From assembly GCA_903929765.1 (NCBI GenBank), contig CAIYVX010000050.1, positions 1-49,492 of the forward strand: a stretch of DNA of 49,492 nt, read 5' to 3'. The notes under the pieces are model-generated. The model worked only from the letters and a program-made list of their open reading frames with translations. It did no database searches and was not told the DNA's origin. The number at the start of each line of letters is the position of its first letter. Positions within the stretch are counted from its first letter, which is position 1. A program made the translations under genes and the position numbers. The DNA is from an uncultured Planctomycetia bacterium. GTDB lineage: Bacteria; Planctomycetota; Phycisphaerae; FEN-1346; JAACEH01. Shown piece after piece: positions 5,197-41,809 of this stretch.

Positions 5197-6760
<1,564 letters not shown>

Positions 6761-6826: not shown

Positions 6827-7930
6827 TCAGCGCCGCCCTTGCCCGCGCAGGGCCTGGAGCCAGCGGAGGCGCGGGGCGAAGTCCATGGCCTTGCTCCGGC
6901 AGAATTCGTGGCAACAATAACAGGAGATGCACTTCGCCGGATCAATCTTCGGATAAGGGTCCATCCTGATCGCCCTGACCGGACACTGCTTACCGCAAGC
7001 GCCGCAACGGATGCAGAGCCGGCGGTTGGCGCGCGGCTGGCTGACGTAGATGCGGCTCAGCCAACTGATCAGACGATTGGTGAAGGCCAGTCCTAGCGGC
7101 GGACGGCGGAAACCGGTAATCGGCTCGGCCCGGCCGACGGTCTCAATCCGCGCGAGGTCCGCCACGCCCAGGCCGCGCCCCTGGGCCTCCATCAGATGAG
7201 CAATGGCCCCCGGCTTGAAGCCCATCATCCGCCCCGCGCAGGCGTCCAGGGCCACGGCGTCGCGCGAGGCCAGCAGCCGCCCGACAAACCGCGGCCGCCC
7301 GCCCGACGGTCCCTGGCCTTCCATGGCGTAAACCGCGTCCATGATCGACAGGTCCGGCGGTCGGAGGGCAAAGACGTCGACGATGGCCCGGGCGAAGTCA
7401 GCCGCCGCTGGGTTGCAGGCGTGGAGTTGGGTCTTGGCGGCGCCGATGACGTAGCCGAAGGTGTTCTTGACCGCGCCGGTCAAGCCGGTGGCGACGTGCG
7501 TCTTCATCTTCGGCAGGCTGATGACAAAGTCGGCTTCGAGGATGGTCCGCGAAATGGGTAGTTCGACGATTCGCGCCGTAGCGCCGCGGACCGCTTGCGG
7601 CGCGTCGGCGATGTTGCGATAGCAGTCGTCGGCCGCCTCGATGATCCCCGCAACTCGGGCGGCGTGTTCGGTCGAGCCGTAGGAGGTCATACCGGGATTG
7701 TCGCCGACGACGATTTCGGCGGCCTGACGCCGGCGGCAGGCCTCGACCGCCGCCGCCACCAGGGCCGGATGCGTGGTGACGTGTTCCTCGGGCCGGCACG
7801 GGCCGAGGATGTTGGGCTTGATGAAGACGCGCCGCCCGGCCAGCGGCGGGGCGAGTTCCTGGAAGGCCCGCTCCACCAGCGGGGCCACGGCCTCGTAATC
7901 GAGACATTCGTAGATCAGAACTTTGGTCAT
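6827..7930 (-). CDS. DUF362 family protein with two C-terminal [4Fe-4S] motifs
   Basis: 367 residues, starting at the ATG (7930) that overlaps the upstream stop as ATGA. The DUF362 body includes VFIKPNILGPCRPEEHVTTH, VVGDNPGM and SLPKMKTHVATGLTGAVKN. The C-terminus carries two ferredoxin-type clusters, CIRCGACGKQCP and CISCYCCHEFC (about 315-355), so it should bind two [4Fe-4S] clusters and pass electrons. DUF362 enzymes are poorly characterised. Being last in the ketosynthase/GH3 operon, it may carry out a late redox step on the product. No signal peptide, so cytoplasmic. Confidence 0.88.
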   Translation of the reverse strand: MTKVLIYECLDYEAVAPLVERAFQELAPPLAGRRVFIKPNILGPCRPEEHVTTHPALVAAAVEACRRRQAAEIVVGDNPGMTSYGSTEHAARVAGIIEAADDCYRNIADAPQAVRGATARIVELPISRTILEADFVISLPKMKTHVATGLTGAVKNTFGYVIGAAKTQLHACNPAAADFARAIVDVFALRPPDLSIMDAVYAMEGQGPSGGRPRFVGRLLASRDAVALDACAGRMMGFKPGAIAHLMEAQGRGLGVADLARIETVGRAEPITGFRRPPLGLAFTNRLISWLSRIYVSQPRANRRLCIRCGACGKQCPVRAIRMDPYPKIDPAKCISCYCCHEFCRSKAMDFAPRLRWLQALRGQGRR

Positions 7931-8973
7931 GGGGATTTCAAGGCAAAATAACCGTGGCCCACTAGATTGAAGACGCGCTCCTCGACGATCTGGAAACCGG
8001 CCTCGCGGAACAACTGCCGCCACAGGTCGGCCTCGCCGATCCGCTGGTTCGTCAGGTCATGGAACAGGTGGTGTTCGAGGAAGGCCGTGGGACGTTTCCG
8101 CAGGGCCTCGTGCGGCTGGTTGCAGAACTCGCCGATGACAAAGAGGGCCTGGGGAAACTGCTGCCGCAACTTGGCCAGGGCCGCGACGATTTCCGCCGTC
8201 CCATTCCACAGATATTCATGGAACGTATCGACCGCTGTGACGCAATCGACCTCCGGCCCGCCGCCGGCGGCCTGGGTGCCGAGGTTCCGCAGGTCGGCCT
8301 CCTCGACCCGCAGCCGCGAGGCCAGCGGGCTGCGGGCCAGCACGTCGCGGGCATAGGCGACCATTTTCGGATCGAGGTCGATGCCGATTCCGGTCAGGTC
8401 CGCCACTTTCTCGCACAGGAAAAACAGGAAGGCCAGGTCGCCGCAACCCAGGTCGAGCACGCGGCGGCACTTGTGCCGGGCGATGATGTCGGCCATGACC
8501 GGATAGGGCAGGTCGCGGCAGAGCATCCCGGAGCCGCGGCCGACGTATTCGATCCGCCGGGCCACGTCGGGGCCGTATTTTTTCCGCCCGGCCAGCAGGT
8601 CGTTGAGGTTCGTGAAGAGCGGCTCGTAGGCGTAGGTCAGTTCAAACAGCCCGCGCGTTTCTTCGATGAAATGGCGGCCGCGCTGGGCCAGGCGAACCTG
8701 CCCGGCCTCGAAGCGGACCAGCGAAATCCCGTCGAGATAATCCAGCAGGCTCGTGAGGACGTGGCGGTCGAGGCTCTTCTCTTTCGCGAACTCTTCGACG
8801 TCCACGGTTTCCTGTTCGATCATCCGGTCGGCCAGGCCGCAGGACATGAGCGCCCACAGGGCGTTGGTGGCCACATAGCCGCGGACGAAGGGTTGAGCCT
8901 CGTCGTAGCGCTGCTTCATCCGGATGGCCCGGGAAAAACCGAGGATTCGAAACAGGTCGGCAATTTCGCCCAT
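7927..8973 (-). CDS. SAM-dependent (O-)methyltransferase-like protein
   Basis: 348 residues from the ATG at 8973, which has GGAG nine bases upstream; an ATG five codons earlier lacks a site. The N-terminal third looks like the winged-helix dimerisation domain of polyketide and phenolic O-methyltransferases (ATNALWALMSCGLADRMI). The Rossmann domain carries motif I VLDLGCGDLAFLFFLCEK (about 172-190), followed by GIGIDLDPKMVAYAR and an acidic residue set around DTFHEY. It probably methylates a hydroxyl or carboxyl of the locus product; the substrate is unknown. It overlaps the DUF362 gene by four bases. Confidence 0.8.
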   Translation of the reverse strand: MGEIADLFRILGFSRAIRMKQRYDEAQPFVRGYVATNALWALMSCGLADRMIEQETVDVEEFAKEKSLDRHVLTSLLDYLDGISLVRFEAGQVRLAQRGRHFIEETRGLFELTYAYEPLFTNLNDLLAGRKKYGPDVARRIEYVGRGSGMLCRDLPYPVMADIIARHKCRRVLDLGCGDLAFLFFLCEKVADLTGIGIDLDPKMVAYARDVLARSPLASRLRVEEADLRNLGTQAAGGGPEVDCVTAVDTFHEYLWNGTAEIVAALAKLRQQFPQALFVIGEFCNQPHEALRKRPTAFLEHHLFHDLTNQRIGEADLWRQLFREAGFQIVEERVFNLVGHGYFALKSP

Positions 8974-9002
8974 GAGGCGATACTCCATTTTTCAACAAGC
9001 TA

Positions 9003-9755
9003 CTACACCGGCTCGGCCCGGATGATCCGCTCGGAAAACTCCGCCACCACACGGTGCCCCGGCGGCACGCGCAGAAACCGCTCGTCGTCCCAGCGGCCGT
9101 CCAGCCAGTCCTGCAACAGGTCGAGGTTGCCGTGAAGCCGCAGGAACTCCCAGCCCTTTTCCAGGCAGATCTCGGTCACTTGCCGGTCGAGATTCAGGTG
9201 TTTGACGAAATCAAAGTCGATCAGCGTCCCGTGGGTGTAATGCTGCTCCCACTTGCCCATAAACTCAACCAGATATTTCGCGTTATCCTCGCCGTACTTT
9301 TCGACCAGCTTCTGGTATTCCTGCATCTTCCGCCAGGTGTCGCCCAGGCCGCTGTTGGCCATCATATCCACGCGGTCGCCCTTGCGGTCGCGGTGTTCGA
9401 GCCAGCCGCTGGAATAATAAAACGTTCCCGGATGGGCCTCGAACTCCTGGGCGTAGCGCTCCTTGCTGCCCAGCAGAAAAGTGATGCAATCGTGGGCCCG
9501 CGGAATAATCAGTTCCCGCCCGCGAGCCTGGAGGCCGACAATGCCGTTGTTGCACAGGCCGTAACCCAGCAAAATCGCGTCAAACTTCTCCGTATCGACC
9601 GCGTCGATCACCTTCTGAAGTTCGACCCGCATCTGGTCGCTGTTGTCGTGCAGTCCCTGGGTGAGAAACTCCACCGTGACCAGGTTCAGGGCCTGGGCGG
9701 CGCAGTGATAAATTTCCCGGGCCGCGATTTCACAGGCGATCACTTTGAGGTTCAC
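9003..9755 (-). CDS. DUF1638 domain protein
   Basis: 250 residues from the GTG at 9755, which overlaps the GH3 stop as GTGA; longer in-frame starts lie inside the GH3 gene and are not credible. DUF1638 features: LKVIACEIAAREI at the start, LLGYGLCNNGIVGL, LIIPRAHDCITFLLGSKERY and GTFYYSSGWLEHRD. The family often occurs near corrinoid or methyl-transfer genes, but its biochemistry is unsettled. Here it sits tightly between a GH3 synthetase and a methyltransferase, which suggests a role in making or handling the same product. Cytoplasmic. Confidence 0.85.
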   Translation of the reverse strand: MNLKVIACEIAAREIYHCAAQALNLVTVEFLTQGLHDNSDQMRVELQKVIDAVDTEKFDAILLGYGLCNNGIVGLQARGRELIIPRAHDCITFLLGSKERYAQEFEAHPGTFYYSSGWLEHRDRKGDRVDMMANSGLGDTWRKMQEYQKLVEKYGEDNAKYLVEFMGKWEQHYTHGTLIDFDFVKHLNLDRQVTEICLEKGWEFLRLHGNLDLLQDWLDGRWDDERFLRVPPGHRVVAEFSERIIRAEPV

Positions 9756-11458
9756 GGCTTTTTCACGCCTTTCCGCACGTCGGGGAACCGCTTCTCGAAC
9801 TCCAGGTCGTTGGCGAGGAACTTGTGCTTGTATTGTTCGATGCCGCGCCGCCGGGCCGCCACAATTTCCAGATCGTAGGCCGTCCAGGCGCCGCGGGCCG
9901 CCAGTCGCACCTGCACCGGGGCCAGCCGTCCGGTATCGCGCTTGCTGCGGTACTCGATATTCTCGTGGCACAGGGCCGAGTCGACCGCGGCCGCCAGCGA
10001 GGCCAGGCCGTCGCCCCCGGCCAGGGCCGCTTCTTCGACGATCAGCGAATAGAACGGCGCCGTCTCCGACCAGGTCGGCGCCAGGCAATACGACCCCAGG
10101 GCCAGGCCCGTCTGCTCCAGCGCCGCATTGACCGCTTCCACGGCCTGGTGCTCCGACAGCTTTTCGCCGGTCAGACTCGAATAATGGGCCCCCTTGTTCA
10201 GGAAGGCCACCAGCGGCGAACCTTCCAGGAAACCGTCCACCCGGACCACGTCGCCCATATTGTAGCGGTACAGTCCCGCCGAAGAGGTCAGCAGGAGGAA
10301 GTATTCGCGGCCGGCCTCTAGTTCGTGGGCCAGCAGCGGCTCACCGCCCAGGGCTTGTCCGTCGCGCGCCGGGAGAAACTCGAAGAAACTCGATTCCAGA
10401 TCGAGCACCCCGGCCGACCCGTCATTGGAGAGGGGAATGGTCATGCGGCCCTCGCTGGCGATGAGGCCGATGTCGCGGACGGCCGCACCGCCGAAATAGC
10501 GCGGGAACTCCCGCAAATAAAGGCTCAGCGTCCCGCCCTTCCAGCAGCCGATGAGCGGCAACTGCCACGCGGTTTTGGGATAGAGATGTCCTTCGCGGGC
10601 GACGGCCTGGTCCAGTTCGCGGGCTCGCTCCGGCTCGGGCCGCAGGCGGCCTTCGACCTCGCGCCGCACTTCCGCCGGCAGATCCAGATCGCCCGAGAGC
10701 GTGCCGTCGGCCAGGTCGCGCAGCAGATCGGCCTTGCGCTCGTCCATGGCCCGGGCCAGGCCCAGGAGCGTGCTGGGATTGGGCGCCAGCGGCACCGTAA
10801 CCCGGTGGGCCAGGGCCAGCCGCGCCGCGACGTAATATTTGCTCTGAATATCTTTGATATGTGCCACGCACGAGGGCACGGCGTAGAGGTTCTTCGCTCC
10901 GGGGCGCTGCACTTGGGCCGTCAGGCCGGACGTGGCCCCGCACGGCAGGCCGCAGGGCGCCCGCTCGTCGTCCCAGGCCGAGTGGAATTGGAGAACTCTC
11001 ATCCGGCCCCCGCTGGCGATGTAGTGCGACCGGACGGCCTGGATGCCCCAAAGCATCCACCCCGCCCGGTACTCGGTCAGAAACGGTTCGGGCACCGGGA
11101 TGTATTTCGGCTGGCTCGTCGTGCCGCTGGTCATGGCGAACATGTGGACGCGCTGGCCGCGACCGAACATGGCGGCGAAGTCGCCCTGGCGGACCCGCGC
11201 GATGTAGGGGGCGTAGTCTTCGTAGCTGGTCACCGGCAGCCGGGAGCGGAAATCCGCCACGGAGCGGATCGCGGCGAAACCGTGGTCGCGCCCGAAGGCC
11301 GAATCCTGGTTGCGGCGAATCTTTTCCAGCAACGTCCGCTCCTGAACGCGGCGCTGGTCGCGCAGGCTGCGATTGAAGCGGGCCAGGTTGCGGCGGGCTT
11401 CCCAGGCGAAGGCCCGGATCAAGAGCGGCTGGAGCAGTCGGGAGAGGCTAGGCGGCAT
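9752..11458 (-). CDS. GH3-family acyl-adenylate/amide synthetase
   Basis: 568 residues, full length for the family. The ATP-binding motif MTSGTTSQPKYIPV lies near residue 110. ASEGRM, LYRYNMGDVVRV and the C-terminal KHKFLANDLEFEKR region are also GH3-type. Characterised GH3 enzymes (plant auxin and jasmonate conjugases) adenylate a carboxylate and join it to an amine or amino acid. Bacterial members are little studied. In this operon the obvious acid donor would be the product of the adjacent ketosynthase/ACP system. The start overlaps the hydrolase stop by 11 bases, and GGAGG precedes it. Confidence 0.9.
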   Translation of the reverse strand: MPPSLSRLLQPLLIRAFAWEARRNLARFNRSLRDQRRVQERTLLEKIRRNQDSAFGRDHGFAAIRSVADFRSRLPVTSYEDYAPYIARVRQGDFAAMFGRGQRVHMFAMTSGTTSQPKYIPVPEPFLTEYRAGWMLWGIQAVRSHYIASGGRMRVLQFHSAWDDERAPCGLPCGATSGLTAQVQRPGAKNLYAVPSCVAHIKDIQSKYYVAARLALAHRVTVPLAPNPSTLLGLARAMDERKADLLRDLADGTLSGDLDLPAEVRREVEGRLRPEPERARELDQAVAREGHLYPKTAWQLPLIGCWKGGTLSLYLREFPRYFGGAAVRDIGLIASEGRMTIPLSNDGSAGVLDLESSFFEFLPARDGQALGGEPLLAHELEAGREYFLLLTSSAGLYRYNMGDVVRVDGFLEGSPLVAFLNKGAHYSSLTGEKLSEHQAVEAVNAALEQTGLALGSYCLAPTWSETAPFYSLIVEEAALAGGDGLASLAAAVDSALCHENIEYRSKRDTGRLAPVQVRLAARGAWTAYDLEIVAARRRGIEQYKHKFLANDLEFEKRFPDVRKGVKKP

Positions 11459-12494
11459 GGGGCGCCCCCTCCACGACGGCCTGTGGCATGTTCTTATCGA
11501 GGAAAGAGCACGTTTGCCGGCGATACTCCTCCGGGGCGAGGGCGGCGGCCTGATTGTGCCGCGCCCCCGGCACTTGCCACAGTTGCTTCGCCCCCGGCTT
11601 GACGCGGTACAGCTCGGTCCGCTGGGCCGGGCGGACGTAGGCGTCGTCCTGGCCGTAGATGAACAGGGTGGGCACGTCGGCCAGGCGGGTCAGGGCCTTG
11701 CGGACCAGCGGATAGCGAACGCGGGCGGTCAATTCGGCATAGAGAATGGTCAAGGCCCGCAAGGTGGCCCAGGCCGCCGGCGGATGGGCCGGATTGGCGA
11801 CGTGACTGGAGGCGAAGATGATGGCCCAGCGGCGCATCAGATCTTCCACCATCAGGTCGGTCGAGAAGACGCCGTCGAGGACCAAAGCCCGAATGCGCCG
11901 CTGCTGGAGCGCCGCCAGCACCGCGGCGCAGGCCCCGCGGCTGACGCCGATGACGGCCACCGGGTGATCGTCGCGGCCGGCGAGCGACTCGACGTAGGCC
12001 ACGGCGGCCAGGAGATCGTCCACCTCGTGGTTGGTCACCCAGTGCGAGGGATGATAGTGTCCGCGATTGGAGCTTTCGCCGTGGCCCCGGAAATCGAAGG
12101 TGAAAATCCGGAAGCCCAGTTCGGCCAGTCCTCCGACGTGCCGGGCGGCCAGATCGCGCTGGCCGGCAAATTCGTGGGCGAAGATGACCGTGCCGCGAAC
12201 GGGAACTCCCGCCGGCGGCTCGGCCAGGGCGCCCATCAGGCTGGTGCCGTCGCGGCTGGGAAACTGGAGAACCTCGCCCGCGAACTTGCCCGTGCCCAAG
12301 TCCGGCGAAGTCGGCATTTTCGTGTCGAGGAACAACCGCAGAGAGATGCGCAGGTAACGCGAGAAGACGATCAGCCCGACGACCAGGATGACGGCGACGA
12401 CGGCCAGAACGACCCAGAGCCAGGGAAAGCCGGAGGCCTCCGGTTCATCGGCCAGCATCAAAAAAGGCCAGGCTGTCCACCCGCCAGCGCCCAT
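11448..12494 (-). CDS. Membrane-anchored alpha/beta hydrolase
   Basis: 348 residues from the ATG at 12494; the GTG immediately before is equally possible, and AGGAG lies just upstream of both. One hydrophobic segment (about 23-45, WLWVVLAVVAVILVVGLIVF) is followed by an alpha/beta hydrolase fold. That fold has an oxyanion region FAHEFAG, nucleophile elbow GVSRG (Ser), acid YGQDD and a likely catalytic His in GARHNQAA. This suits a thioesterase- or esterase-type enzyme that frees or transfers the acyl chain from the ACP, but nothing proves the substrate. Confidence 0.82.
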   Translation of the reverse strand: MGAGGWTAWPFLMLADEPEASGFPWLWVVLAVVAVILVVGLIVFSRYLRISLRLFLDTKMPTSPDLGTGKFAGEVLQFPSRDGTSLMGALAEPPAGVPVRGTVIFAHEFAGQRDLAARHVGGLAELGFRIFTFDFRGHGESSNRGHYHPSHWVTNHEVDDLLAAVAYVESLAGRDDHPVAVIGVSRGACAAVLAALQQRRIRALVLDGVFSTDLMVEDLMRRWAIIFASSHVANPAHPPAAWATLRALTILYAELTARVRYPLVRKALTRLADVPTLFIYGQDDAYVRPAQRTELYRVKPGAKQLWQVPGARHNQAAALAPEEYRRQTCSFLDKNMPQAVVEGAPHAA

Positions 12495-12516
12495 CACGGT
12501 CCGATCTCCTTTGAGC

Positions 12517-13806
12517 CTACGGCGCGTAACGCCGGACAATCACCGCGTCGTTCTGGCCGCCGAAGCCGAAGGATTCCGACAGGCAAACCTCGACCTTAGC
12601 CGCCCGGGCGACGTTGGGCACATAGTCGAGATCGAGGCCTTCGTCGGGATCCTCATAGTTGATCGTCGGCGGGAGCATCTGGTCGCGCATCGCCAGCACG
12701 CAGGTGATCAGTTCCGAGGCTCCGGCCGCCGCGATCAGGTGTCCGAGGCTGCTCTTGACGCTGGAGACGGGAATCTGATAGGCCCGCGGCCCGAAAAACT
12801 TTTTCAGGCTCAGTGTCTCGATCTTGTCGTTCTCCGTCGTACTCGTACCGTGGGCGCTGACGTAATCGATGGCCTCGCGCGGCAGGCCGGCGTCGCGCAC
12901 CGCCGCTTCCAGACAGGCCAGCGGACCGCGGCCTTCCGGGTGGATGTCCGTCATGCGATAGGCGTCCGCCGACGAGCCGTAACCGACGACCTCGGCATGA
13001 ATCCGCGCCCCGCGGGTCAGGGCGTGGTCAAGCGTTTCCAGGATCAGCAGACTGCCGCCCTCGCCCATGACGAACCCGCTGCGCTTCTTGTCGAACGGGC
13101 AACTGGCTTTTTCGGGATGGTCGCGCGGCTCGGTGGCGATGGCCGTCAGAAGGTTGAAGCCCATGACGCCGAAGGGCTGAATCATCGAATGTGCGCCGCC
13201 GGTGAACATGACGTCGGCGTCGCCGCGCCGCAAGATCATCATCGCTTCCCCGATGGCCTGGGTGCTGGCGGCGCAAGCCGTCAGCGAGTTGGCGTTGGGG
13301 CCGAAGGCCTGGTAGAGGCGGGCCAGATGCGTCGCTGCCCGGCCTGGTTCCTGTTCCAGTTCGTTAATCGGATCGTACTGAATGGCCCCCTCGCGGCAGT
13401 AAGTCGCCGTGTCCACCTGGCCGTCTTTGCAGGCCGCGCCGATGCTCCGTGTGAAGGCGTCAAAATCCGCCGGACCTTCGCCGCTGGCAAAATAGACGCC
13501 GAAGCGTTCCGGGGCCACCTGTCCGAGCCGCAGGCCGCTATCGGCAAAAGCCATCTTCGCCGCCGCGACGGTGAAGTGGACATTGCAGCCGGAGCGGGCG
13601 AATTCTTCGGGGTGATCCGTATAGTCAGCCAACTCGAACGGTGGCACCTGGGCCGAAAAGGTGGTCGGATAGGCCGAGGCGTCGAACTTGCGAGTGCGCG
13701 AAACGCCGCTCCGGCCGGCCAGGATGCCCTGCCAGTTTTCTTCCACCGTCAGGCCCAGCGGTGCGACCATGCCCAGGCCGGTGATCACGACGCGGTTTCG
13801 AGTCAT
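12517..13806 (-). CDS. Beta-ketoacyl-ACP synthase (KS-alpha, FabF-like)
   Basis: 429 residues. The complete catalytic set is visible: Cys178 in LTACAAS, His319 in SAHGTST, and Lys351/His356 in SVKSSLGHL. The C-terminal SFGFGG loop is also present. It condenses an acyl starter with malonyl-ACP. It lies directly downstream of a catalytically degenerate ketosynthase (13968-15290), giving a KS-alpha/KS-beta arrangement as in type II polyketide and aryl-polyene systems. It is distinct from the housekeeping FabF at 39291-40529, so it is probably pathway-specific. Confidence 0.92.
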   Translation of the reverse strand: MTRNRVVITGLGMVAPLGLTVEENWQGILAGRSGVSRTRKFDASAYPTTFSAQVPPFELADYTDHPEEFARSGCNVHFTVAAAKMAFADSGLRLGQVAPERFGVYFASGEGPADFDAFTRSIGAACKDGQVDTATYCREGAIQYDPINELEQEPGRAATHLARLYQAFGPNANSLTACAASTQAIGEAMMILRRGDADVMFTGGAHSMIQPFGVMGFNLLTAIATEPRDHPEKASCPFDKKRSGFVMGEGGSLLILETLDHALTRGARIHAEVVGYGSSADAYRMTDIHPEGRGPLACLEAAVRDAGLPREAIDYVSAHGTSTTENDKIETLSLKKFFGPRAYQIPVSSVKSSLGHLIAAAGASELITCVLAMRDQMLPPTINYEDPDEGLDLDYVPNVARAAKVEVCLSESFGFGGQNDAVIVRRYAP

Positions 13807-13829
13807 AACAGCAGGCTCCAGAACAGCAG

Positions 13830-13871
13830 GCTTAAGGCTTAAGGCTTAAGGCTTAAGGCTTAAGGCTTAAG
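13830..13871. repeat. Six tandem GCTTAAG heptamers
   Basis: GCTTAAG is repeated exactly six times, head to tail, in the gap between the KS-like genes. Each unit contains the palindrome CTTAAG. A second, shorter array of the same heptamer lies at 15302-15329, on the other side of the KS-beta gene. Confidence 0.9.
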
Positions 13872-13967
13872 ACTTCAGAAACAACAAACAGCAACGCCAA
13901 GCGGAATAAGACATTTTACTATGGCGGCTGCAAACGGCGCATCCGCCCTACATAACGGCAAAGGCGG

Positions 13968-15290
13968 CTAGGTATTTCGCACGATCAGGGCGGCGGTCTG
14001 GCCCGAAATGGCCGCCGACAGCACGAGCACCGTTCTCACCTGGCGCTGGAGCGTCTGGCCGCGCACGGCGTTGATCGGGCAACGCTGATCGAGTTCTTCG
14101 CAGTTGCGAATCGGCGGCACGCGACCGGCGGCGATCATGCGGCAAGCCAGGGCCGCGCCCACGATGCCCTGGGCCGCCCCGATGTTGCCCATGCCGCCGG
14201 AGAACGCCGTTACCGGAACGTCGCCCAGGGTCTCGCGGATGGCCGTGGCCTCGGCGATGTCCTGGCCGAGGGTGCCCGAGCCTTGGGCGGCGACGACGTC
14301 GATGTCGGCGGGCTTGAGGTTGGCGTCGCGCAGCGCCGCACGAATCGCCAGGCGGATGGCCTGGCCGGAAGTTTCTGAAACGTTGGCTGTCGTGGCGGCG
14401 CAACTGGAGCCGAAGCCCGCGACCATCGCCAGCGGCTTATGCCCGCGCCCGGCGGCGTGGTCAACCGTTTCCATAATCAGGGCGGCCGAACCTTCCGCGC
14501 AGGCGTAACCGTCGCGGCAGACATCGAAGGGCCGGTGGGCCGCTTCGGGCCGGTCGTGGAAATGGGTCGTCGCGTTGCCCAGCAGATGGTGCCGCAGGAG
14601 CAGACTGGGATGAACCTTGCTCTCGGCCGCGCCGGCCAGCATCATGTCGGCCGTGCCGCGCGCCAGGTGGCGGAACGCTTCGCCCGCCGCCAGCAGCCCC
14701 GAGGCGTCGTTGCAGGTGATGGTGTTGGAGGGCCCCTGACAATCCCAGATGATGCCGACGTGGCAGGCCAGCATGTTCGGCAGGTACTTCAGCAGCCAGA
14801 GCGGAAAGGCCAGCGGAATGCCGTCGTGACCCCACTTGGTCATGTCGATCGAACCGTCCGGGCGGCGGGCGGCCATGATTGTGGCGGCCAACTCCGGCAA
14901 CTCGATCGGGATGAACCCGGCCCCGTAAAGGATGCCGAAGCGGGCATGGTTGAGGCCCGGAAGAATCGGCTCCGTGGCTGCGTCGCCCAGCGTCAGACCA
15001 GCTTCGGCCACGGCCCGGCCGACGGCCCCGACCGCCAGTTGAATGTCGCGGCACATGACCTTGGTGTTCTTGCGAAAATATTTGATCTGGTCCTTGCGCA
15101 TGCCGACGGAGAGGTCGGTCCCGGTTGGGAGGCGGCCGACCACGCGCGAGGCGCAGGCCGAAGTGTCGAACCCGGCCTCAAGGCCCGTGGCGGAACCGCC
15201 GGCGCACAGCGCGGCGAAGTTCGCGTCGGTTGTGTCCCCCAGCGGCGTCAGGGCCGAGGTGCCGGAGATGACCACCTGTCGTTCTTGCAC
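13968..15290 (-). CDS. Chain-length-factor-like ketosynthase (KS-beta), catalytic residues lost
   Basis: 440 residues with the overall thiolase/KS fold pattern. The nucleophile region reads TITCNDASG, so the Cys is one place early and Asn194 (or Asp195) occupies the catalytic position. The first His is replaced by Gln336 in AAQGSGT, and the Lys/His motif reads SGGMGNIGAAQG with Asn369 in place of His. Loss of all three sites is typical of chain-length factors that pair with an active KS. Its partner is probably the next gene (12517-13806). It likely helps set the chain length of the locus product. Confidence 0.85.
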   Translation of the reverse strand: MQERQVVISGTSALTPLGDTTDANFAALCAGGSATGLEAGFDTSACASRVVGRLPTGTDLSVGMRKDQIKYFRKNTKVMCRDIQLAVGAVGRAVAEAGLTLGDAATEPILPGLNHARFGILYGAGFIPIELPELAATIMAARRPDGSIDMTKWGHDGIPLAFPLWLLKYLPNMLACHVGIIWDCQGPSNTITCNDASGLLAAGEAFRHLARGTADMMLAGAAESKVHPSLLLRHHLLGNATTHFHDRPEAAHRPFDVCRDGYACAEGSAALIMETVDHAAGRGHKPLAMVAGFGSSCAATTANVSETSGQAIRLAIRAALRDANLKPADIDVVAAQGSGTLGQDIAEATAIRETLGDVPVTAFSGGMGNIGAAQGIVGAALACRMIAAGRVPPIRNCEELDQRCPINAVRGQTLQRQVRTVLVLSAAISGQTAALIVRNT

Positions 15291-15301
15291 GATTACTCCA
15301 G

Positions 15302-15329
15302 GCTTAAGGCTTAAGACCTAAGGCTTAAG
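15302..15329. repeat. GCTTAAG heptamer array, second copy
   Basis: Four units: three exact GCTTAAG and one ACCTAAG (15316-15322). They lie just upstream of the KS-beta gene on the minus strand, in the dehydratase/KS-beta gap. A further CTTAAGGCTT lies at the end of the dehydratase gene near 15372. Confidence 0.85.
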
Positions 15330-15372
15330 GAACGGCAGGGCAGAGACAAGCTCTGCCCCTACGAAAAAAATC

Positions 15373-15864
15373 TTAAGGCTTGGCGGCGAAGGCCGTCCGC
15401 AAGGTTCTCATGCGCAACAGCCTGACGAAGTCCGGCGAGAAGACGAAGTTTTCCTCGCCGAACGTTTCCCCGGCCATGTTCTGGTCCAGGTGTACGAACA
15501 TCATTTCGATCTCGGCCACCAAATCTTCCCCGCAGGTGATTGTGCCGCGCACCGAGGCGCCTTCGGGCTTGATCTGGTCGATGACCTCGACGTTGTAAAC
15601 GATCTGGTCGCCGGGAATCGCCTGGCGGTGGAATTTGGCCCGGCCGATCTTGGCCAGGATGACTTTTTCGCGGAAATCCGTGGCCTCGCCGACCAGCACG
15701 CCGCCGGTCTGCGCGAAACCCTCGATCATCAGGCTGGCCGGATGGGTCGGATAGCCGGGAAAATGGTCATGGACATGCTCTTCGGCCAGCGAGACATTTT
15801 TCAGGCCCCGGGCGCTTTTGCCGGGCTGGAAATCGAGGAAGCGATCAACCCAGAACCATCTCAT
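15373..15864 (-). CDS. FabZ-like 3-hydroxyacyl-ACP dehydratase (1)
   Basis: 163 residues, hot-dog fold pattern. The catalytic His lies in VHDHFPGYPTHP and the catalytic Glu in LMIEGFAQ, matching the His/Glu pair of FabZ. It dehydrates 3-hydroxyacyl-ACP to enoyl-ACP in the cytoplasm. It is somewhat longer than FabZ (about 150), with a C-terminal helical extension. It is paired with a second dehydratase across the ACP gene, which points to repeated formation of double bonds, possibly a polyene, or to different chain-length preferences. Confidence 0.85.
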   Translation of the reverse strand: MRWFWVDRFLDFQPGKSARGLKNVSLAEEHVHDHFPGYPTHPASLMIEGFAQTGGVLVGEATDFREKVILAKIGRAKFHRQAIPGDQIVYNVEVIDQIKPEGASVRGTITCGEDLVAEIEMMFVHLDQNMAGETFGEENFVFSPDFVRLLRMRTLRTAFAAKP

Positions 15865-15887
15865 CCGTCAAACCCTCATCAAAGACA

Positions 15888-15938
15888 GAAACCCAAGAGG
15901 CGACCGGGAATCACGGGGACGCCGACGCCTTGGGTTTC
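15888..15938. other. Stem-loop in ACP/dehydratase gap
   Basis: GAAACCCAAGAGGCG (15888-15902) pairs, with one bulged A, to CGCCTTGGGTTTC (15926-15938). It lies between the dehydratase start and the ACP stop. No T-run is seen, so it could be an mRNA-stability or attenuation structure. Confidence 0.4.
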
Positions 15939-15987
15939 GGGTGTACCGCCGCCGGCCGCGCCGAGCGACCGCCGGTCCAACTGCGTT

Positions 15988-16392
15988 TCAGGCCGTCGTA
16001 CCGGACGAATTCAGCTTGGCCTCGATGTACTTGCAGATCATCCCGACCGTGACCAGATTGGGAACCTTCTGAATGTCCGGATCCTTCTCGAATTCGGTCA
16101 TGTTCGCGTAGGGCATGCGTTTCTTCAGTTCCTCAAGGCCGACCGGGGTCAGCTTGCCGGCCTGGACGAATCGCTCGTCGGTGAACATGTTGTCGGGCAC
16201 CAGGTCGCCGCGCGGAATCTTGAGGCTGAATTCTTTTTCCAGGCGGAACCCGATGTCGAGATAGTCGATCGATTCGGCCCCCAGGTCCGGTCCCAGCGTG
16301 GCTTCCGCCGTAACCTGATCCTCATCAACGCCCAGCGCGCCAACCAGCGCCTCGCGCACCTTCGCAAAAATCTCTTCGGAACTCAATGCCAT
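15988..16392 (-). CDS. Extended acyl carrier protein (pathway ACP)
   Basis: 134 residues against about 78 for a normal ACP. The phosphopantetheine attachment site is Ser41 in LGAESIDYLD. Helix I (EEIFAKVREALVGALG) and helix II (FRLEKEFSLKIPRGDL) are standard. Between helix II and the final helix (LVTVGMICKYIEAKL) lies an insertion of about 40 residues rich in Pro, Lys and Asp. It should carry the growing chain for the flanking KS, CLF and dehydratases. No dedicated phosphopantetheinyl transferase is in the window. It is clearly distinct from the housekeeping acpP at 40620. Confidence 0.88.
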   Translation of the reverse strand: MALSSEEIFAKVREALVGALGVDEDQVTAEATLGPDLGAESIDYLDIGFRLEKEFSLKIPRGDLVPDNMFTDERFVQAGKLTPVGLEELKKRMPYANMTEFEKDPDIQKVPNLVTVGMICKYIEAKLNSSGTTA

Positions 16393-16422
16393 GACGGTAA
16401 CCTCCAGTTCACTATTGTCCTG

Positions 16423-16902
16423 TCACCCATTAACCTTAGCGGCTATGACGTTCCACCGCTGTCGCAGTGCCGCAACGATGGCCCGGTCGGTCTCGGCCTG
16501 GGCCGGGTCGGTGTCGGCAAGGTTGAAGGCCCGCAGCGTGAATCGGCCCTGCACCGTGACCTGCTCCTCGACCTGTCCGACGCCTTTGAAACTCCAAAGC
16601 CCCGGTTCCTGCTTGAGACATTCCACCGTGATCCGCATCGACGTTCCGGGCTTGAAAAACGCCCCGTACTTGACGTTGCGGGCCTCGTCGAGGACGACCA
16701 CGCTCTGAGCAAAATCGGTCGTCGCCCGGTGCAGCCAGGCCGCCGCCTGAATCAGGGCCTCGATCATCAGCACCCCCGGCGAAACAGGATACGCCGGAAA
16801 ATGGTCCTGAAGATACTCCTCGGCCAGCGTCAGGTTTTTCAGGGCCACGAGCCGCTTACCGCGCTCCAACTCGAGTACCCGGTCTGTCAGGTAAAACTTC
16901 AT
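16423..16902 (-). CDS. FabZ-like 3-hydroxyacyl-ACP dehydratase (2)
   Basis: 159 residues from the ATG at 16902, with AGGAT just upstream; the N-terminus MKFYLTDRV aligns with MRWFWVDRF of the first dehydratase. Catalytic His in LQDHFPAYPVSPG and Glu in LMIEALIQ are present. The two dehydratases share the LxNLTLAEEYLxDHFPxYP region and are paralogues bracketing the ACP. Role as for dehydratase 1; division of labour unknown. A longer in-frame start (17031) exists but has no ribosome site. Confidence 0.85.
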   Translation of the reverse strand: MKFYLTDRVLELERGKRLVALKNLTLAEEYLQDHFPAYPVSPGVLMIEALIQAAAWLHRATTDFAQSVVVLDEARNVKYGAFFKPGTSMRITVECLKQEPGLWSFKGVGQVEEQVTVQGRFTLRAFNLADTDPAQAETDRAIVAALRQRWNVIAAKVNG

Positions 16903-17052
16903 GCCGATCCTATCGCGGCTCATTTTAGCAACCGCGCCGCCGATTGCCAGAGTTTTTCCGGGCACGGTCCGTCCGTTGCCTCCGGCCACTCCAGAGACAG
17001 GAAAAGTAGCAAACCGGGACAAAGTTTGCAAGGTAAAAAGGGCCGGCGCCGG

Positions 17053-17997
17053 TCAGGATCCCCGGTGATCGATAATGTCACGAACGACATACCGTGGCCG
17101 CTGCTTGATTTCCGCGTACATGTGGCCCAAATACTGGGCCAGAATGCTGAAACAGACCAGTTGCACCGACCCCAGGATCATACTGATTATCAGCAGCGTC
17201 GTGAACCCGGAGGGAGCGTCGCCTTTGACAAAGTACAGGGCCAGATAATAGGCCGCTCCGGCCAACGTCGCCGCAACGCTCAGCAGGGCCAGCACGGAGA
17301 TGTATTCCAGCGGCTTGCTGCTGAAGGAAAAAACCGCCAGCAAAGCCCAGCGGATGTTGCCGACGAAGGAGTTGGTCGTGCGGCCGTCAAAGCGCGGCAA
17401 ACGCACATAGTTCACGCCGGTATGGCGAAAGCCCGTGTAGGCCCGCAGGCCGCGCAGGAAGACCATCCGCTCGGGAAAATCCGCCAGCAGACAATCGACA
17501 ACCTTGCGGTCCATCAGGCCGAAGTCTCCGGCGTCCACCGGCACGTTGATATCCGACAGCCGGCGAAACAGGCGATAAAAGGCCTTGTAGGCGACCTGCC
17601 GGAACAACGTTTCCTTGCGCTTGACGCGCACGCCGTAAACAATGTCGTAGCCGGCCAGCCATTGCTCGACCAGTTGCGGAATGACGTTCGGCGGATCCTG
17701 CAAATCGCCGTCCATCAGCACGACGGCGTCGCCGCGTGAGATTTTCATGCCCGACAGAAAAGCGTTCTGGCTGCCGAAGTTCCGCGTGTGGTTGACCACC
17801 ACCAGGCGGGGATCCTGGGCCGCCAGTTCGGCCAGGATTTCTCCGGCGTTGTCGGGCGAGGCATCATTGACATAAATAATTTCGTAGTTTTCGGTCAGCG
17901 TCGGCAGAATCTCGGTCAGTTGGCGGTAGAACTCCCGCACCGAACCGGCGTCCCGATAGCAGGCGATGATGATCGAGAGCCGTTTGGTCGTCTTCAT
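17053..17997 (-). CDS. Membrane GT2 glycosyltransferase (polyprenyl-phosphate type)
   Basis: 314 residues. The cytoplasmic GT-A domain has SIIIACYRDAG, VNDASPDN, the metal-binding VLMDGDLQDPP, and DAGDFGLMDRKVV. Two C-terminal transmembrane segments follow (about 229-255 and 265-290). This is the layout of dolichol/undecaprenyl-phosphate sugar transferases (DPM1, ArnC, GtrB-like). It probably loads a sugar onto a lipid phosphate at the inner face of the membrane, for use by the polytopic membrane proteins of the locus. Its start overlaps the transketolase stop (ATGA). Confidence 0.88.
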   Translation of the reverse strand: MKTTKRLSIIIACYRDAGSVREFYRQLTEILPTLTENYEIIYVNDASPDNAGEILAELAAQDPRLVVVNHTRNFGSQNAFLSGMKISRGDAVVLMDGDLQDPPNVIPQLVEQWLAGYDIVYGVRVKRKETLFRQVAYKAFYRLFRRLSDINVPVDAGDFGLMDRKVVDCLLADFPERMVFLRGLRAYTGFRHTGVNYVRLPRFDGRTTNSFVGNIRWALLAVFSFSSKPLEYISVLALLSVAATLAGAAYYLALYFVKGDAPSGFTTLLIISMILGSVQLVCFSILAQYLGHMYAEIKQRPRYVVRDIIDHRGS

Positions 17998-21690: not shown

Positions 21691-23493
21691 TTATTTGATG
21701 TCCATGGCCATGCCGCCACCCGTGTTCAGGAGAGCCTGGCGGTCGTTGGTCAGAACTTTCAAGCTTACCTCGTGCCGTCCGGGCGCCACCACCTTAGCCG
21801 GCAGGAGGCGCTGGAAGCCGCAGTGCAGCAACCCCTCGTTTTGCAGTCTCGTTGCCACCTCGGGACGTGGCGCGCCATAGTAGAGCGGATATTCCTTGCC
21901 GTCAAGCACCAGGTAGACGCCCCCGGCCAGATCGCCATGCACAGAATCGACCGCCCAGCCGGTGACGGAATAAGCCTTATGGTCATCAATCTCCTGGAAG
22001 CCGTCGATTTTGAACTGCGTGGGGTCGCTCAACCTGGGCAGAGTGTCACTCAAGGGCGCGTACTTCTCGGCTATTCCGCCTTTGGCGAAAACATTGTCGC
22101 CCTGACGCTTCAGAAAGGCCGCCTTGGAACGTAATGAGTCAAGGTAGCCAGGATTATAAACCTCGTCCGGCTGGTCTTCGATGGTCGACACCACGAAGGC
22201 CAGATATTGACGCACCTCTCGACCGCGGCTTCCGGATAGATATCCGGCTACGTCGCCCAGGCCGACGACGAGCAACAATAGTCCGATCAGGACGCCCTGG
22301 AACCGCCAAAGCCGACTGGCGGGATGTTCCCTGGCCAGCGAAATGAGAATAACGTAGGTCGCCGCCACCAGGGAAATCGCAAATGTCGAGTAGCGCGACG
22401 ACAGGGCCTGGTGGACGCCCAGACCTGATCGACCGATGGTTATGGACAAGATGGTCAGCAGAGAATAAACCATCGTCGCCAGCCAGAACGAGTAGCGGTG
22501 CCATTGCCGGCGCCTGATCACCAAAGCAACCGCGAGCGCCGCCAGGAGCAGGATCTCCGCCCCCAGCACGAGAGCCGCCAGCACGGGCATCCGGCTATGG
22601 CTGCCGGAGCCGCCGACCAGGGCGCCGCCGACGGAGGCCAACAGGTAGGCCGGCGAAAAAATGAATCCCGGATGATGGGCGGGTTTGACATAACCGTGAA
22701 AATACGTCAACCAGACGCCGCAGCCGATCACCATCCAGGCGAGGGAGAGGGCGATCTTGAGACGCCGATTGATGGCCAGCAGGAAAATTTGCACCAACCC
22801 GGCCGGCCAGGCCAGCAGCCCCTGAGCGCAAGAGAAAGAGGCTACGACCGCCAGGGCCAGGGCGCCGGCCAGCGGCGCCAACCAATTTCTGTCCCGGACC
22901 AGACGCAGGCAAAAGAAAACGGCGATCGAGGCGGCCTGGACCATGACGAAAACAATCAGCAGGCCCAGGAGCAGAGTTTCGGCCTGCTTCCAACTCATCG
23001 TCAGGAAGGCCGCCGGCGCCAGGAGCCACAGGGCGGATCGTCCGGGGAAGTCCTTGACGTACACATAGATGTACATTGCCAGAACCGCCGCGAGCAGCAG
23101 CACTGAACAGTACATTTCGACAATTGTATTATATTTAGTCGCCAGTCCCAGGCCGAGCACGGTCAATTCCGGAAAGAACGTCCGATGCTCGTTGTGCAAC
23201 GACCAGAGATCGGAGAAGGTCAGCGTGCCCGCCGCCTGATGCTCAAAGAGGAAGAGCCGGTCCCACTCATCCCCGCTAATCACGTTGACGCCGAACAGCC
23301 AGACATAGACAAAACCCAGGGCCACGGCCAGAAAAATCGGGATCCAGGCCGCGCGAGACCGCCCGTGTGGCGAGGGCAGCGCGGAAGAAAGGTTTACTCT
23401 TCGGTGGGCGGTCTCGCCGACACCGGTCTCGGCGGGACCGGGCTTCGCGCCGGCCGGTTCGCAGTTGGGCTGGGGAGCGGACTCTGGGGACAT
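21691..23493 (-). CDS. Polytopic membrane protein, EHRxFFP family (paralogue A)
   Basis: 600 residues; GGAGG precedes the ATG. A Pro-rich cytoplasmic start leads to about ten hydrophobic segments (about 48-430). The first loop carries an acidic motif (ISGDEWD) and HNEHRTFFPE, shared by two more copies at 28563-30377 and 30526-32325. The soluble C-terminal region (about 470-600) holds GWAVD...GGVYLVLDGKEYP...GFQRLLPA...LTNDRQALL, a probable beta-sandwich. An acidic motif in the first outer loop of a many-segment protein fits a GT-C type glycosyltransferase using lipid-linked sugars, but this is inference. Confidence 0.82.
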   Translation of the reverse strand: MSPESAPQPNCEPAGAKPGPAETGVGETAHRRVNLSSALPSPHGRSRAAWIPIFLAVALGFVYVWLFGVNVISGDEWDRLFLFEHQAAGTLTFSDLWSLHNEHRTFFPELTVLGLGLATKYNTIVEMYCSVLLLAAVLAMYIYVYVKDFPGRSALWLLAPAAFLTMSWKQAETLLLGLLIVFVMVQAASIAVFFCLRLVRDRNWLAPLAGALALAVVASFSCAQGLLAWPAGLVQIFLLAINRRLKIALSLAWMVIGCGVWLTYFHGYVKPAHHPGFIFSPAYLLASVGGALVGGSGSHSRMPVLAALVLGAEILLLAALAVALVIRRRQWHRYSFWLATMVYSLLTILSITIGRSGLGVHQALSSRYSTFAISLVAATYVILISLAREHPASRLWRFQGVLIGLLLLVVGLGDVAGYLSGSRGREVRQYLAFVVSTIEDQPDEVYNPGYLDSLRSKAAFLKRQGDNVFAKGGIAEKYAPLSDTLPRLSDPTQFKIDGFQEIDDHKAYSVTGWAVDSVHGDLAGGVYLVLDGKEYPLYYGAPRPEVATRLQNEGLLHCGFQRLLPAKVVAPGRHEVSLKVLTNDRQALLNTGGGMAMDIK

Positions 23494-26680: not shown

Positions 26681-28579
26681 CTAGCGAAGTTCAACCCAGG
26701 TCAGGGTCACCGCTTTGGCGAACAGGGTTTCGTCGGCCTTGAACCTGATCTCGCGAACCGGACAGGCCCGGCCGGTTACAAAAAACTCCTGGGCCTGGGA
26801 CGGCAGCCACGGCAGGTCGCTGACCAGGAACCCGCCGGCCAGGTTGCGCCAGACCGTGCGAAACTGCCGCGACTCGCCCGTCTCATACGTTACCATGATG
26901 TCGGGCGGCTTGACCTTGTACAGCGTCTCAGCCAATTTTCCGACCGCAGAAAGTTGCAACCGGGCCTGTAACTCCACTCGTCCCGGAAACCGGCCGCTCA
27001 CCTGGATCGCCTGGCCCAACGGTATGTTTTCTTGTTTCAAAACGACCGCCTGTTCCCATCGCGGGTGCGGCCGGCGCTGCAGCAGGAACAGATCCTCGTG
27101 CGACTCCACGAGATCGTAATGCCGTACGATCTCCAGCCAGGTTTGCGGATCGACCAGGCACGGGTGTTCGTCATCAATGGCGTCATGCCGATAGAGAATG
27201 AAGTCTGGCGCGTTCGGCCCCTGATAAAACTCTGCCCCGCGAAAGTCCAGAATCGGAGCGTAGGCAGAATATGACTGAAGTACCAGCCGGGGTCTCCAGT
27301 TGAGATGGTTGACGTAGACCAGCCAAATATCCGACGGGTAGACATCCACCGGCTGCTGGCCGATCAGTTGCCGCCAGGCCTCCGGCATTTGCGGCACGGG
27401 CCCATTGAAATCGCCCGCGACGACGTATGGGGACGTCACCCGCGGCGGAAAGGCGGCCACCGCCTGGCTGGCCCGCTCGAGGAGCGCTGGCGGCGGGTAA
27501 TGGTGGGCCAAACGACAGCACCCGAAGATGGTCAGCGCCAGGGCCAGCCGAAACAACCACCGGTCGATGTTTTGCGGAGTCAGACAAAGTGCCAGGCCCA
27601 AGAGGGTCGACCAAAGAACGCAGCCGATGAGAAAATGGGGCGTATCAGAGCGAACCACCGCGGCTTTGAAGGCGAAGAAGAGCGGAATGGCCAGCAGCAC
27701 GGAGGCCACCGCCCCGGGGTGCCGTCGATAACAGCGCCACGCCACCAACAACACGAAGCCGACCATGACCACGGCCAAACAGAGTTCTTGGTGATGATCT
27801 GCCGCGAGAGACATGGCGCTCGAGTAGTCTGCGGCGATCAACCAGGAATAATACAGGTGTGCAGGCAGCAAACTCAGAGGGTTTCCACTGAGCCGAAAGA
27901 GCAGCAGAACCAAAGCAATATAAAGCCCCGCCAGGGCCGCCAGCCGCAGGGCCAGAGTCCCGCGCCGCGGCATCGCCAGCATCGCCACGCCCCAGGCCGC
28001 CAACAGGATGGCGTTACCCAGCCCGGCGTTAAACTTGCCCAGCAGGGAGAAGGCCGCAACGAAAATCGCCGGAATCGCCCACCGCAACTGCCGCCGGTGA
28101 TAGCTCAGCACCAGGTACGCCGCGACCATCAGGGGGAGGCAATTAGTGAACAAACTTAAGCTCACCGCAGGCCAAGAACAGCCCACCAGCACGATGTCCA
28201 GCCGGTTCTCCAACTGCCTCAGCACCAGCCCGAGTGCTCCCAGGAAAAGAAATTCCAGTAAGACCAGCCCCACCACGGCCGGAGCGAGGTTCGTGCCGAC
28301 ATCCATGGGGTAGAATACAAATCCCAACGGCCCGTAGGTCCAGGCCACGTCTCGTCCGAACTCCAGATGGTTGGCGGAAGCCAGATTCAAACCCAGGATC
28401 CAACTGCCATCAATGGACTGATTACCCGTGCCTTTGAAGGAGGGAAACGTCATCACCAGGCAGAGCAACAACATGGCGGCGCGCCACCACCAAAGCCCCC
28501 GGGGCGCATTCGTGGGCTTGCTGCTGGCGACACGGAATTCAGAGGACACCACGTTTCCCACGCTATTTGATGTCCACAC
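26681..28579 (-). CDS. Polytopic membrane protein (different family), possible GT-C type
   Basis: Up to 632 residues. The start is uncertain: GTG at 28579 overlaps the upstream gene's last codons, and GTGs near 28550 are equally possible. About ten hydrophobic segments (about 30-400) include a loop with GSWILGLNLASANHLEFGRD then WTYGPLGFVFYP. A soluble C-terminal half (about 420-632) contains predicted beta structure. It is not a copy of the EHRxFFP genes, but it is embedded among them and shares the membrane-plus-C-terminal-beta layout. A transferase or flippase role is guesswork. Confidence 0.75.
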   Translation of the reverse strand: MWTSNSVGNVVSSEFRVASSKPTNAPRGLWWWRAAMLLLCLVMTFPSFKGTGNQSIDGSWILGLNLASANHLEFGRDVAWTYGPLGFVFYPMDVGTNLAPAVVGLVLLEFLFLGALGLVLRQLENRLDIVLVGCSWPAVSLSLFTNCLPLMVAAYLVLSYHRRQLRWAIPAIFVAAFSLLGKFNAGLGNAILLAAWGVAMLAMPRRGTLALRLAALAGLYIALVLLLFRLSGNPLSLLPAHLYYSWLIAADYSSAMSLAADHHQELCLAVVMVGFVLLVAWRCYRRHPGAVASVLLAIPLFFAFKAAVVRSDTPHFLIGCVLWSTLLGLALCLTPQNIDRWLFRLALALTIFGCCRLAHHYPPPALLERASQAVAAFPPRVTSPYVVAGDFNGPVPQMPEAWRQLIGQQPVDVYPSDIWLVYVNHLNWRPRLVLQSYSAYAPILDFRGAEFYQGPNAPDFILYRHDAIDDEHPCLVDPQTWLEIVRHYDLVESHEDLFLLQRRPHPRWEQAVVLKQENIPLGQAIQVSGRFPGRVELQARLQLSAVGKLAETLYKVKPPDIMVTYETGESRQFRTVWRNLAGGFLVSDLPWLPSQAQEFFVTGRACPVREIRFKADETLFAKAVTLTWVELR

Positions 28580-33478: not shown

Positions 33479-33549
33479 GAAAAGAGTCCTCCGGGGCAGA
33501 GCAGACAATGTTCCGGTTGTTGTTTCTGTTTAAGACACACCCTTGCCGC

Positions 33550-40529: not shown

Positions 40530-40576
40530 CTGCTTGAACTACTCCTAACGGAATAGGCTTAAGTCAAAGGGTAGGG

Positions 40577-40592
40577 CGGGTCAGCAGACCCG
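40577..40592. repeat. Short hairpin between acpP and fabF
   Basis: CGGGTC and GACCCG around loop AGCA. A GGCTTAAG heptamer-like piece lies at 40552-40559, echoing the arrays near the KS genes. Confidence 0.45.
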
Positions 40593-40619
40593 ACCGCTAA
40601 GGCCGAAAAATCGCCGAGA

Positions 40620-40862
40620 CTACTTCGCCGTGCCGTGCTGATTAATGTAGTCCATGGCCTGGCCGACGGTCTGAATCTTCTCGGCGTCCTCGTCCGAGAT
40701 CGAAATGTCGAACTCGTCCTCAAGCTCCATGACCAGTTCGACCGTGTCGAGCGAGTCCGCTCCCAGGTCGTTGACGAACGACGTTTCCTTGGTGATCTGG
40801 GCCTTGTCCACGCCCATCTGCTCGGCTACGATATTGATGACCCGTTCTTCGATTGACGCCAC
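40620..40862 (-). CDS. acpP: Acyl carrier protein
   Basis: 80 residues from a GTG at 40862 with GGAGG eight bases upstream; earlier in-frame ATG codons would add an untypical leader. Ser37 in [10 protein letters not shown] carries phosphopantetheine. The acidic helices ([34 protein letters not shown]) match standard bacterial ACP. It carries acyl chains for the surrounding fab enzymes. Confidence 0.95.
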
Positions 40863-40944
40863 TTTACCATCCTCCATTTGTGTCCTTAGCTGTCCAGTTT
40901 CCAGGAGCCGCGAACCCATCGGGGCCCGGCGCTCCCCACCTTTA

Positions 40945-41691: not shown

Positions 41692-41722
41692 ACGCCGCTC
41701 CTTGTTACTTCTTCTTTTGAAG

Positions 41723-41741
41723 CCCCCAGCACTGCTGGGGG
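41723..41741. repeat. 8-bp GC-rich hairpin between fabD and fabG
   Basis: CCCCCAGC and GCTGGGGG flank ACT. It lies upstream of fabG on the minus strand. No U-run; may be a processing or REP-type element. Confidence 0.6.
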
Positions 41742-41768
41742 ACGCCGTTTCTTCTTTTGCCGTTGCTG

Positions 41769-41805
41769 TTAATTTTTAATTTTGCATTTTTAATTTTTAA
41801 TTTTT
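41769..41805. repeat. AT-rich TTAATTTT tandem stretch
   Basis: About 37 bases of near-pure A/T with repeated TTAATTTT/ATTTTTAA units, in otherwise GC-rich DNA, directly downstream of fabD and before fabG. Possible promoter-like or repeat-derived segment. Confidence 0.6.
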
Positions 41806-41809
41806 CGCT

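Follow-up and report, generated by a model that had tools for sequence, protein, structure and literature searches.

What would a bacterium make with ten adjacent genes that join a type II condensing system to an amide synthetase? The question is raised by positions 6827 to 16902 of contig CAIYVX010000050.1, from an uncultured Planctomycetia bacterium whose genome of 3.83 Mb is assembled in 116 contigs; the window, that is, the whole stretch analyzed, comprises 49,492 nucleotides. The reading we favor, with a probability of roughly 45%, is that this locus would encode an amide-lipid pathway that draws its acyl chain from a dedicated pair formed by an intact ketosynthase (KS) and a chain length factor (CLF), a catalytically dead KS-like subunit. 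The original prediction had proposed an acyl chain activated by adenylation and joined to an amine, and this is still the best reading because the KS, the CLF, an acyl carrier protein (ACP), and two dehydratases form a conserved neighborhood with a hydrolase and a GH3-family enzyme. The observation made at that time stands, whereas its interpretation is partly supported.

Gene content and limits of the locus

The ten open reading frames are intact, lie on the minus strand from 16902 to 6827, and belong to the families predicted for them. In the order of transcription, they encode a FabZ-like dehydratase (DH1), a long ACP, a second FabZ-like dehydratase (DH2), the CLF, the KS, an alpha/beta hydrolase (ABH), the GH3 enzyme, a DUF1638 protein, a methyltransferase (MT), and a DUF362 protein with two ferredoxin motifs. 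The gaps from DH1 through ABH are, in order, 30, 123, 82, 161, and 19 bases. Downstream, ABH and GH3 overlap by 11 bases, GH3 and DUF1638 by 4, and MT and DUF362 by 4, with 14 bases between DUF1638 and MT. Therefore, tight coupling is confined to the downstream half, and from the repeated four-base overlaps claimed before, only those of GH3/DUF1638 and MT/DUF362 hold, the five upstream genes being 30 to 161 bases apart.

A tRNA-Pro gene (6683-6760) closes the run downstream. In the other direction, further same-strand genes (a glycosyltransferase and transketolase halves) continue past DH1, so the upstream edge of the cluster rests on synteny. At a distance of about 25 kb, the window also holds an ordinary type II fatty acid synthase (FAS-II) operon (39291-44908) with PlsX, FabD, FabG, FabF, and a probable ACP. 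The KS/CLF genes therefore represent a second acyl-chain system.

The KS/CLF core

The FabF-like KS (12517-13806, 429 residues; TIGR03150, 440 bits) retains the Cys/His/His set, and the adjoining CLF (13968-15290, 440 residues, with ketoacyl-synt domains) shows Asp/Gln/Asn at the same positions, in agreement with the pair of live and dead subunits first proposed. The same division is observed across the collected loci, where Cys/His/His is present in 89 of 89 KS sequences and the catalytic Cys is absent from 90 of 90 CLFs, being replaced by Glu in 73, Asp in 16, and Ala in one. Moreover, these CLFs form a single clade with a support of 1.0. For the window CLF, the closest named relative found is that of the Phycisphaerae metagenome-assembled genome JAAYDY010000019.1, with 59% identity. 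Tandem repeats of the 7-base unit TTAAGCC occupy part of both gaps flanking the CLF gene (13828-13875 and 15300-15330); the 14-base double unit has no other occurrence in the window and appeared in none of 100 shuffles.

The long ACP (15988-16392, 134 residues; PP-binding, 2.1e-07) is a separate gene at a conserved position and carries the DSL-type serine as GAESID. Both the GAES(I/F)D motif and the extra segment of the protein are conserved across 22 aligned sequences. Each of the two dehydratases, DH1 (16423-16902, 159 residues; Pfam FabA-like 9e-17, and NCBIfam FabZ 1.7e-27, under the cut-off) and DH2 (15373-15864, 163 residues; Pfam FabA-like 1.4e-16, supported by the synteny of the core), retains the FabZ His and Glu. 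In DH1 homologs of some other families (loci L047, L050, L051, L052, and L063), the catalytic Glu is replaced by Gln, with a Glu four residues further on, a substitution that could possibly change the activity.

Synteny and phylogenetic spread

Three samples were compared: 61 Phycisphaerae relatives (class sample), 80 named loci, and 294 genomes of the phylum. For the clustering of neighbor genes, a codon score was used to exclude antisense open reading frames in this high-GC DNA. A CLF-type match is present in all 61 class relatives, weaker matches merging into the FabF background. The order DH1-ACP-DH2-CLF-KS is collinear in the class relatives examined, with locus L072 as the sole exception, and also in nearly all of the 80 named loci with long enough contigs, including Isosphaeraceae and Gemmatales. 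Outside the class, strong matches are limited to some families; 49 of the 294 phylum genomes reach E ≤ 1e-50, class members counted in.

The genes that follow the KS have a narrower spread. In 19 of the 80 named loci, the KS is followed by ABH and then GH3, all on the same strand, among them the loci of Singulisphaera GP187 (L095), Paludisphaera soli (L139), Aquisphaera insulae (L144), and Gemmatales/Gemmataceae (L100 and L129), and the pair directly follows the KS in several Phycisphaerae families as well. By hand count, about 30 genomes of the class sample have a strong GH3 match, and about 16 of these have it no more than about 10 kb from the KS on one contig; in G295, the GH3 module and the KS are on different contigs. 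MT orthologs occur in 10 of the 61 genomes, eight of the source order and two of family f100, with GH3 adjacent or within about 1 kb in every case; MT accompanies GH3 in three families. In L052, an aminotransferase, DH1, ACP, DH2, CLF, KS, ABH, GH3, and MT are contiguous. Close DUF362 orthologs are confined to the eight source-order genomes, always beside MT and GH3, and DUF1638 is single copy in all eight, always between GH3 and MT, being sited elsewhere in the f100 genomes.

By this different spread of the core, ABH-GH3, MT, and DUF1638/DUF362, the layers differ in age, and the cluster is a nested arrangement rather than one ten-gene unit. Judged in the same way, DUF1638 and DUF362 joined the locus only in the source order, where some genes are later additions. 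As to whether these genes normally occur without KS genes, the synteny gives three answers: DUF1638 does, GH3 is found both ways, and this type of DUF362 protein occurs only in this type of locus, always with GH3.

The chief rival to an amide-lipid pathway is that the KS/CLF genes are a specialized housekeeping fatty acid synthase for very long, unsaturated, or hydroxylated chains of general envelope lipids, with ABH-GH3 as one of several consumers or just a neighbor. In its favor, the CLF-type match of all 61 class relatives extends to genomes of about 2 Mb, many class relatives lack a linked GH3, and in many loci the core simply adjoins serS. However, ABH-GH3 is found after the KS repeatedly, in two or more classes, a pattern not explained by chance placement, and we consider this rival somewhat unlikely. 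A candidate downstream partner of the core in Phycisphaerae was rejected since it resembles seryl-tRNA synthetase. Also, locus L143 (CAMDDF010000019.1), labeled Candidatus Kuenenia, has a core of the Phycisphaerae type with a serS-like gene next to it, an arrangement shared with Sedimentisphaerales contigs. Its neighborhood resembles that of a Phycisphaerae contig, so that it is probably misbinned and was given no weight as a sign of ladderane synthesis.

The GH3 enzyme and the hydrolase

The GH3-family acyl-acid amido synthetase (9752-11458, 568 residues; GH3 domains, 1.2e-64) is the sole GH3 match of the genome and retains the three nucleotide motifs, TSGTT, SEG, and RY..GD. A functional precedent in planctomycetes is OlsH (Sinac_1599), which joins a free fatty acid and ornithine, with ATP, into N-acyl ornithine, using neither ACP nor CoA, and has the alpha/beta hydrolase OlsI as its partner in the ornithine-lipid pathway of Singulisphaera acidiphila (PMC12493201). 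In the window, ABH (11448-12497, 349 residues; Abhydrolase_1, 1.3e-17) conserves the Ser-Asp-His triad in its GxSRGA, D, and H motifs, and a direct reading of its N terminus reveals a hydrophobic stretch that probably spans the membrane. As OlsH acts on free acids, ABH would most simply link the ACP to GH3 by serving as a thioesterase. In L139, a gene for a DUF1571 protein (15777-17195) lies after GH3, an arrangement seen in ten other loci, mostly of the Isosphaeraceae type.

The methyltransferase and the aminotransferase

MT (METHYLTRANSFERASE; 7927-8988, 353 residues), an S-adenosylmethionine-dependent enzyme, was first taken for an O-methyltransferase, an identity that we reject. Its top family is the 2-ketoarginine methyltransferase (TIGR04543, 1.8e-41, 142 bits versus a cut-off of 425), and its best solved structures are MppJ (8.6e-14) and 2-ketoarginine methyltransferase, with a nearly full-length match. 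Moreover, the domains follow the MppJ/SgvM pattern of an N-terminal helical part and a C-terminal Rossmann part, and two His residues that align with the metal-ligand His of MppJ are invariant across ten homologs. In SgvM, the metal ligands are H244 and H296, and the metal is presumed to enolize the alpha-keto acid (PMC10502145). We therefore predict that MT C-methylates alpha-keto acids.

A candidate distant member of the system is a class I aminotransferase on the same strand (32369-33508), 64% identical to the gene directly upstream of DH1 in L038, a locus of another member of the source order. Such a gene stands upstream of DH1 in several relatives of the source order and of families f97, f100, and f101, and in L137. 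The genomes bearing it all have GH3 as far as seen; at the level of loci, the association is modest (Fisher p 0.02, kinship uncorrected). The window also contains a glycan-type gene block with three related proteins of about 600 residues (21691-23493, 28563-30377, and 30526-32325), the first of which has no Pfam match at 1e-5.

DUF1638 and DUF362

The DUF1638 protein (9003-9755, 250 residues; PF07796, 1.8e-39) had been counted as a pathway member, and this membership is now doubtful. In Planctomycetota, the RACo_C_ter domain is present in 40 of 41 DUF1638 carriers and absent from each of the 14 class genomes that lack DUF1638. Outside the cluster, DUF1638 is often a close neighbor of RACo, with several near-adjacent pairs. 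In agreement with this, fitness data of Phaeobacter link DUF1638 with a RamA-like B12 reactivator by co-fitness (PMC5764234), and a second source supports the link (PMC12478193). The profile thus ties DUF1638 strongly to RamA/RACo-like B12 reactivation beyond the alphaproteobacteria. The invariant positions C8, H36, C68, D89, and C90 suggest a cofactor or metal site; the confident structural model (predicted local distance difference test, pLDDT, 88.8) has no fold match in the PDB at E ≤ 0.001. Since this is the only copy in the genome, its presence can be accounted for by an ordinary B12 function, and we regard it as more probably a passenger related to B12 than a pathway member.

The DUF362 protein (6827-7930, 367 residues; PF04015, 4.9e-51) has two CxxCxxCxxxC ferredoxin motifs, in accordance with the two Fe-S clusters ascribed to it earlier. 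DUF362 and the DUF2088 domain of LarA belong to the same Pfam clan, CL0471 (PMC11770544), and the modeled protein has a LarA-like (nickel-pincer racemase) fold. In the AlphaFold2 model (pLDDT 73.9), which is good over most of residues 1-270 and poor in the ferredoxin tail, all 19 PDB matches of Foldseek at E ≤ 0.001 are LarA-type or LarA-like and include an unnamed protein of Thermotoga (4nar). An hhalign comparison with LarA, based on few sequences (E 0.018), places H145, K155, and H170 on H174, K184, and H200 of LarA, and LarC, which takes part in the synthesis of the nickel-pincer cofactor, is present in all eight source-order genomes. We hypothesize that the protein could use a nickel-pincer cofactor. 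These are concrete biochemical predictions for a domain without an assigned function.

A rival view combines DUF1638 and DUF362, and optionally MT, into a corrinoid (B12) accessory module that would be foreign to lipid synthesis and placed here by rearrangement. The RACo association and the restriction of both genes at this locus to the source order agree with such an origin. Nonetheless, the MT family is not one of corrinoid enzymes, and MT belongs with GH3 because it accompanies GH3 in f100 (L052 and L058) with no DUF1638 nearby. The four-base overlaps of GH3/DUF1638 and MT/DUF362 and the gene order kept in the source-order genomes also speak against it. For the module as a whole, this origin seems to us the less probable one, although a serious contender.

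Proposed pathway and its standing

From the gene identities, motifs, and conserved order, the following steps, including the chain and the amino acid, can be proposed. The KS/CLF heterodimer, its own long ACP, and the two FabZ-like dehydratases would build a particular acyl chain, while the ordinary FAS-II enzymes would lend the malonyl-CoA:ACP transacylase, the ketoreductase, and possibly an enoyl reductase. ABH, probably anchored in the membrane, would then free the acyl group from the ACP as an acid (or act later as an O-acyltransferase), and GH3 would adenylate this acid and form an amide with the amino group of an amino acid. Three more steps would take place in the source order: the C-methylation of an alpha-keto acid by MT, possibly the conversion between hydroxy and keto acid by the LarA-like DUF362/Fe-S protein, and the conversion of the methylated keto acid by the aminotransferase into the amino acid used by GH3, which possibly is beta-methylated. 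The full version of this extension, in which DUF362 employs its LarA fold for redox chemistry and not as a racemase and provides MT with the route to a beta-methylated keto acid that, through the aminotransferase and GH3, would lead to a new class of amino-lipids, is speculative and in our view improbable.

Several observations weigh against this pathway. Roughly half of the class genomes with GH3 have it away from the KS, and the many genomes with the core and no GH3 imply other uses of the chain. The window GH3 is only 26% identical to OlsH (about 23-26% for KS-linked GH3 enzymes), and ABH has no detectable similarity to OlsI, an ABH-family profile finding no OlsI. For the source-order steps, the first catalytic His of LarA (H108) has no counterpart in the DUF362 protein in the weak profile alignment, and LarC is not a specific marker, given its presence in most of the other relatives tested. 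The window aminotransferase is 15 kb off with the glycan-type block in between, and its best named matches (e.g., GntC) are under the cut-off.

A polyene or aryl-polyene-like product made by a highly reducing type II polyketide synthase is quite improbable. A KS, a CLF, an ACP, and two dehydratase-type enzymes do resemble the aryl-polyene and ishigamide enzyme sets, and ishigamide is a polyene amide. However, a family search finds no ketoreductase, ammonia-lyase, or starter/acyltransferase gene among the ten, and the window CLF has no special closeness to characterized CLFs, its best PDB matches being FabF. For comparison, one source describes ApeO-ApeC as the aryl-polyene KS-CLF (PMC8358021).

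Finally, a divergent ornithine-lipid pathway with GH3 and ABH as orthologs of OlsH and OlsI, two families that are likewise adjacent in planctomycetes (PMC12493201), is very unlikely, and this orthology is rejected, because the only NCBIfam match of the window GH3 is to OlsH at 112 bits versus a cut-off of 620 (87 bits for the KS-linked GH3 of Singulisphaera), ABH lacks OlsI similarity, and three Isosphaeraceae, Singulisphaera GP187, Paludisphaera soli, and Aquisphaera insulae, combine a true OlsH, at 974-988 bits, with a KS-linked GH3 at a separate site, matched in pieces of 35-54 bits.

Returning to the amide-lipid pathway, the open-access literature yielded no characterized cluster of this make-up, as the original prediction had held, no laboratory study of any member, and nothing relevant on GH3 combined with KS/CLF or ACP. 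GH3 amino-lipid synthesis and planctomycete CLFs are already known, and the new element is the pairing of GH3 with a type II KS/CLF system, for which no description was found. It would be a lipid or natural-product pathway widespread in Planctomycetota with no product assigned in the literature found, and its carriers include culturable genera, one of which (Singulisphaera) has been genetically altered by the removal of genes (PMC12493201).

Comparison with known systems

In classical CLFs, the usual residue at the Cys position is Gln. The cluster shares with type II KS-CLF systems a KS, a dead partner, and an ACP, but differs in the Glu/Asp at that position, the long ACP, the paired FabZ-like dehydratases, and the linked GH3. 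These systems include an uncharacterized, mainly non-actinobacterial clade of CLFs already catalogued, with Planctomycetes among the phyla listed (PMC10132072).

The small type II clusters for coronafacoyl compounds and cispentacin also have a discrete ACP, a FabZ-like enzyme, and a KS/CLF, and the cluster gives weak matches to AmcB, AmcE, and AmcF, although all far under the cut-offs. An adenylating ligase couples coronafacic acid to an amino acid; here, the ligase is GH3 and not CfaL. Aryl-polyene and ishigamide synthases, unlike the cluster, have in-cluster ketoreductase or starter enzymes, and no specific sequence affinity to them is seen.

For the tailoring genes, MT shares the near full-length match and both metal-ligand His residues with the alpha-keto-acid C-methyltransferases MppJ, SgvM, and MrsA, but identity is low and the family score stays under its cut-off. 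The DUF362 protein is comparable with the LarA nickel-pincer racemases in its modeled fold and, by the weak profile alignment, in the His, Lys, and Ni-ligand His positions, whereas the missing first catalytic His, the two ferredoxin motifs, and the hypothetical nature of the cofactor separate them. The OlsH/OlsI/OlsG pathway offers the nearest parallel in planctomycetes, a GH3 amide synthetase beside an alpha/beta hydrolase, plus a methyltransferase. Nonetheless, the window GH3 scores far below the OlsH cut-off, MT has no similarity to OlsG, the locus adds the KS, CLF, ACP, and dehydratases, and both loci coexist in Singulisphaera.

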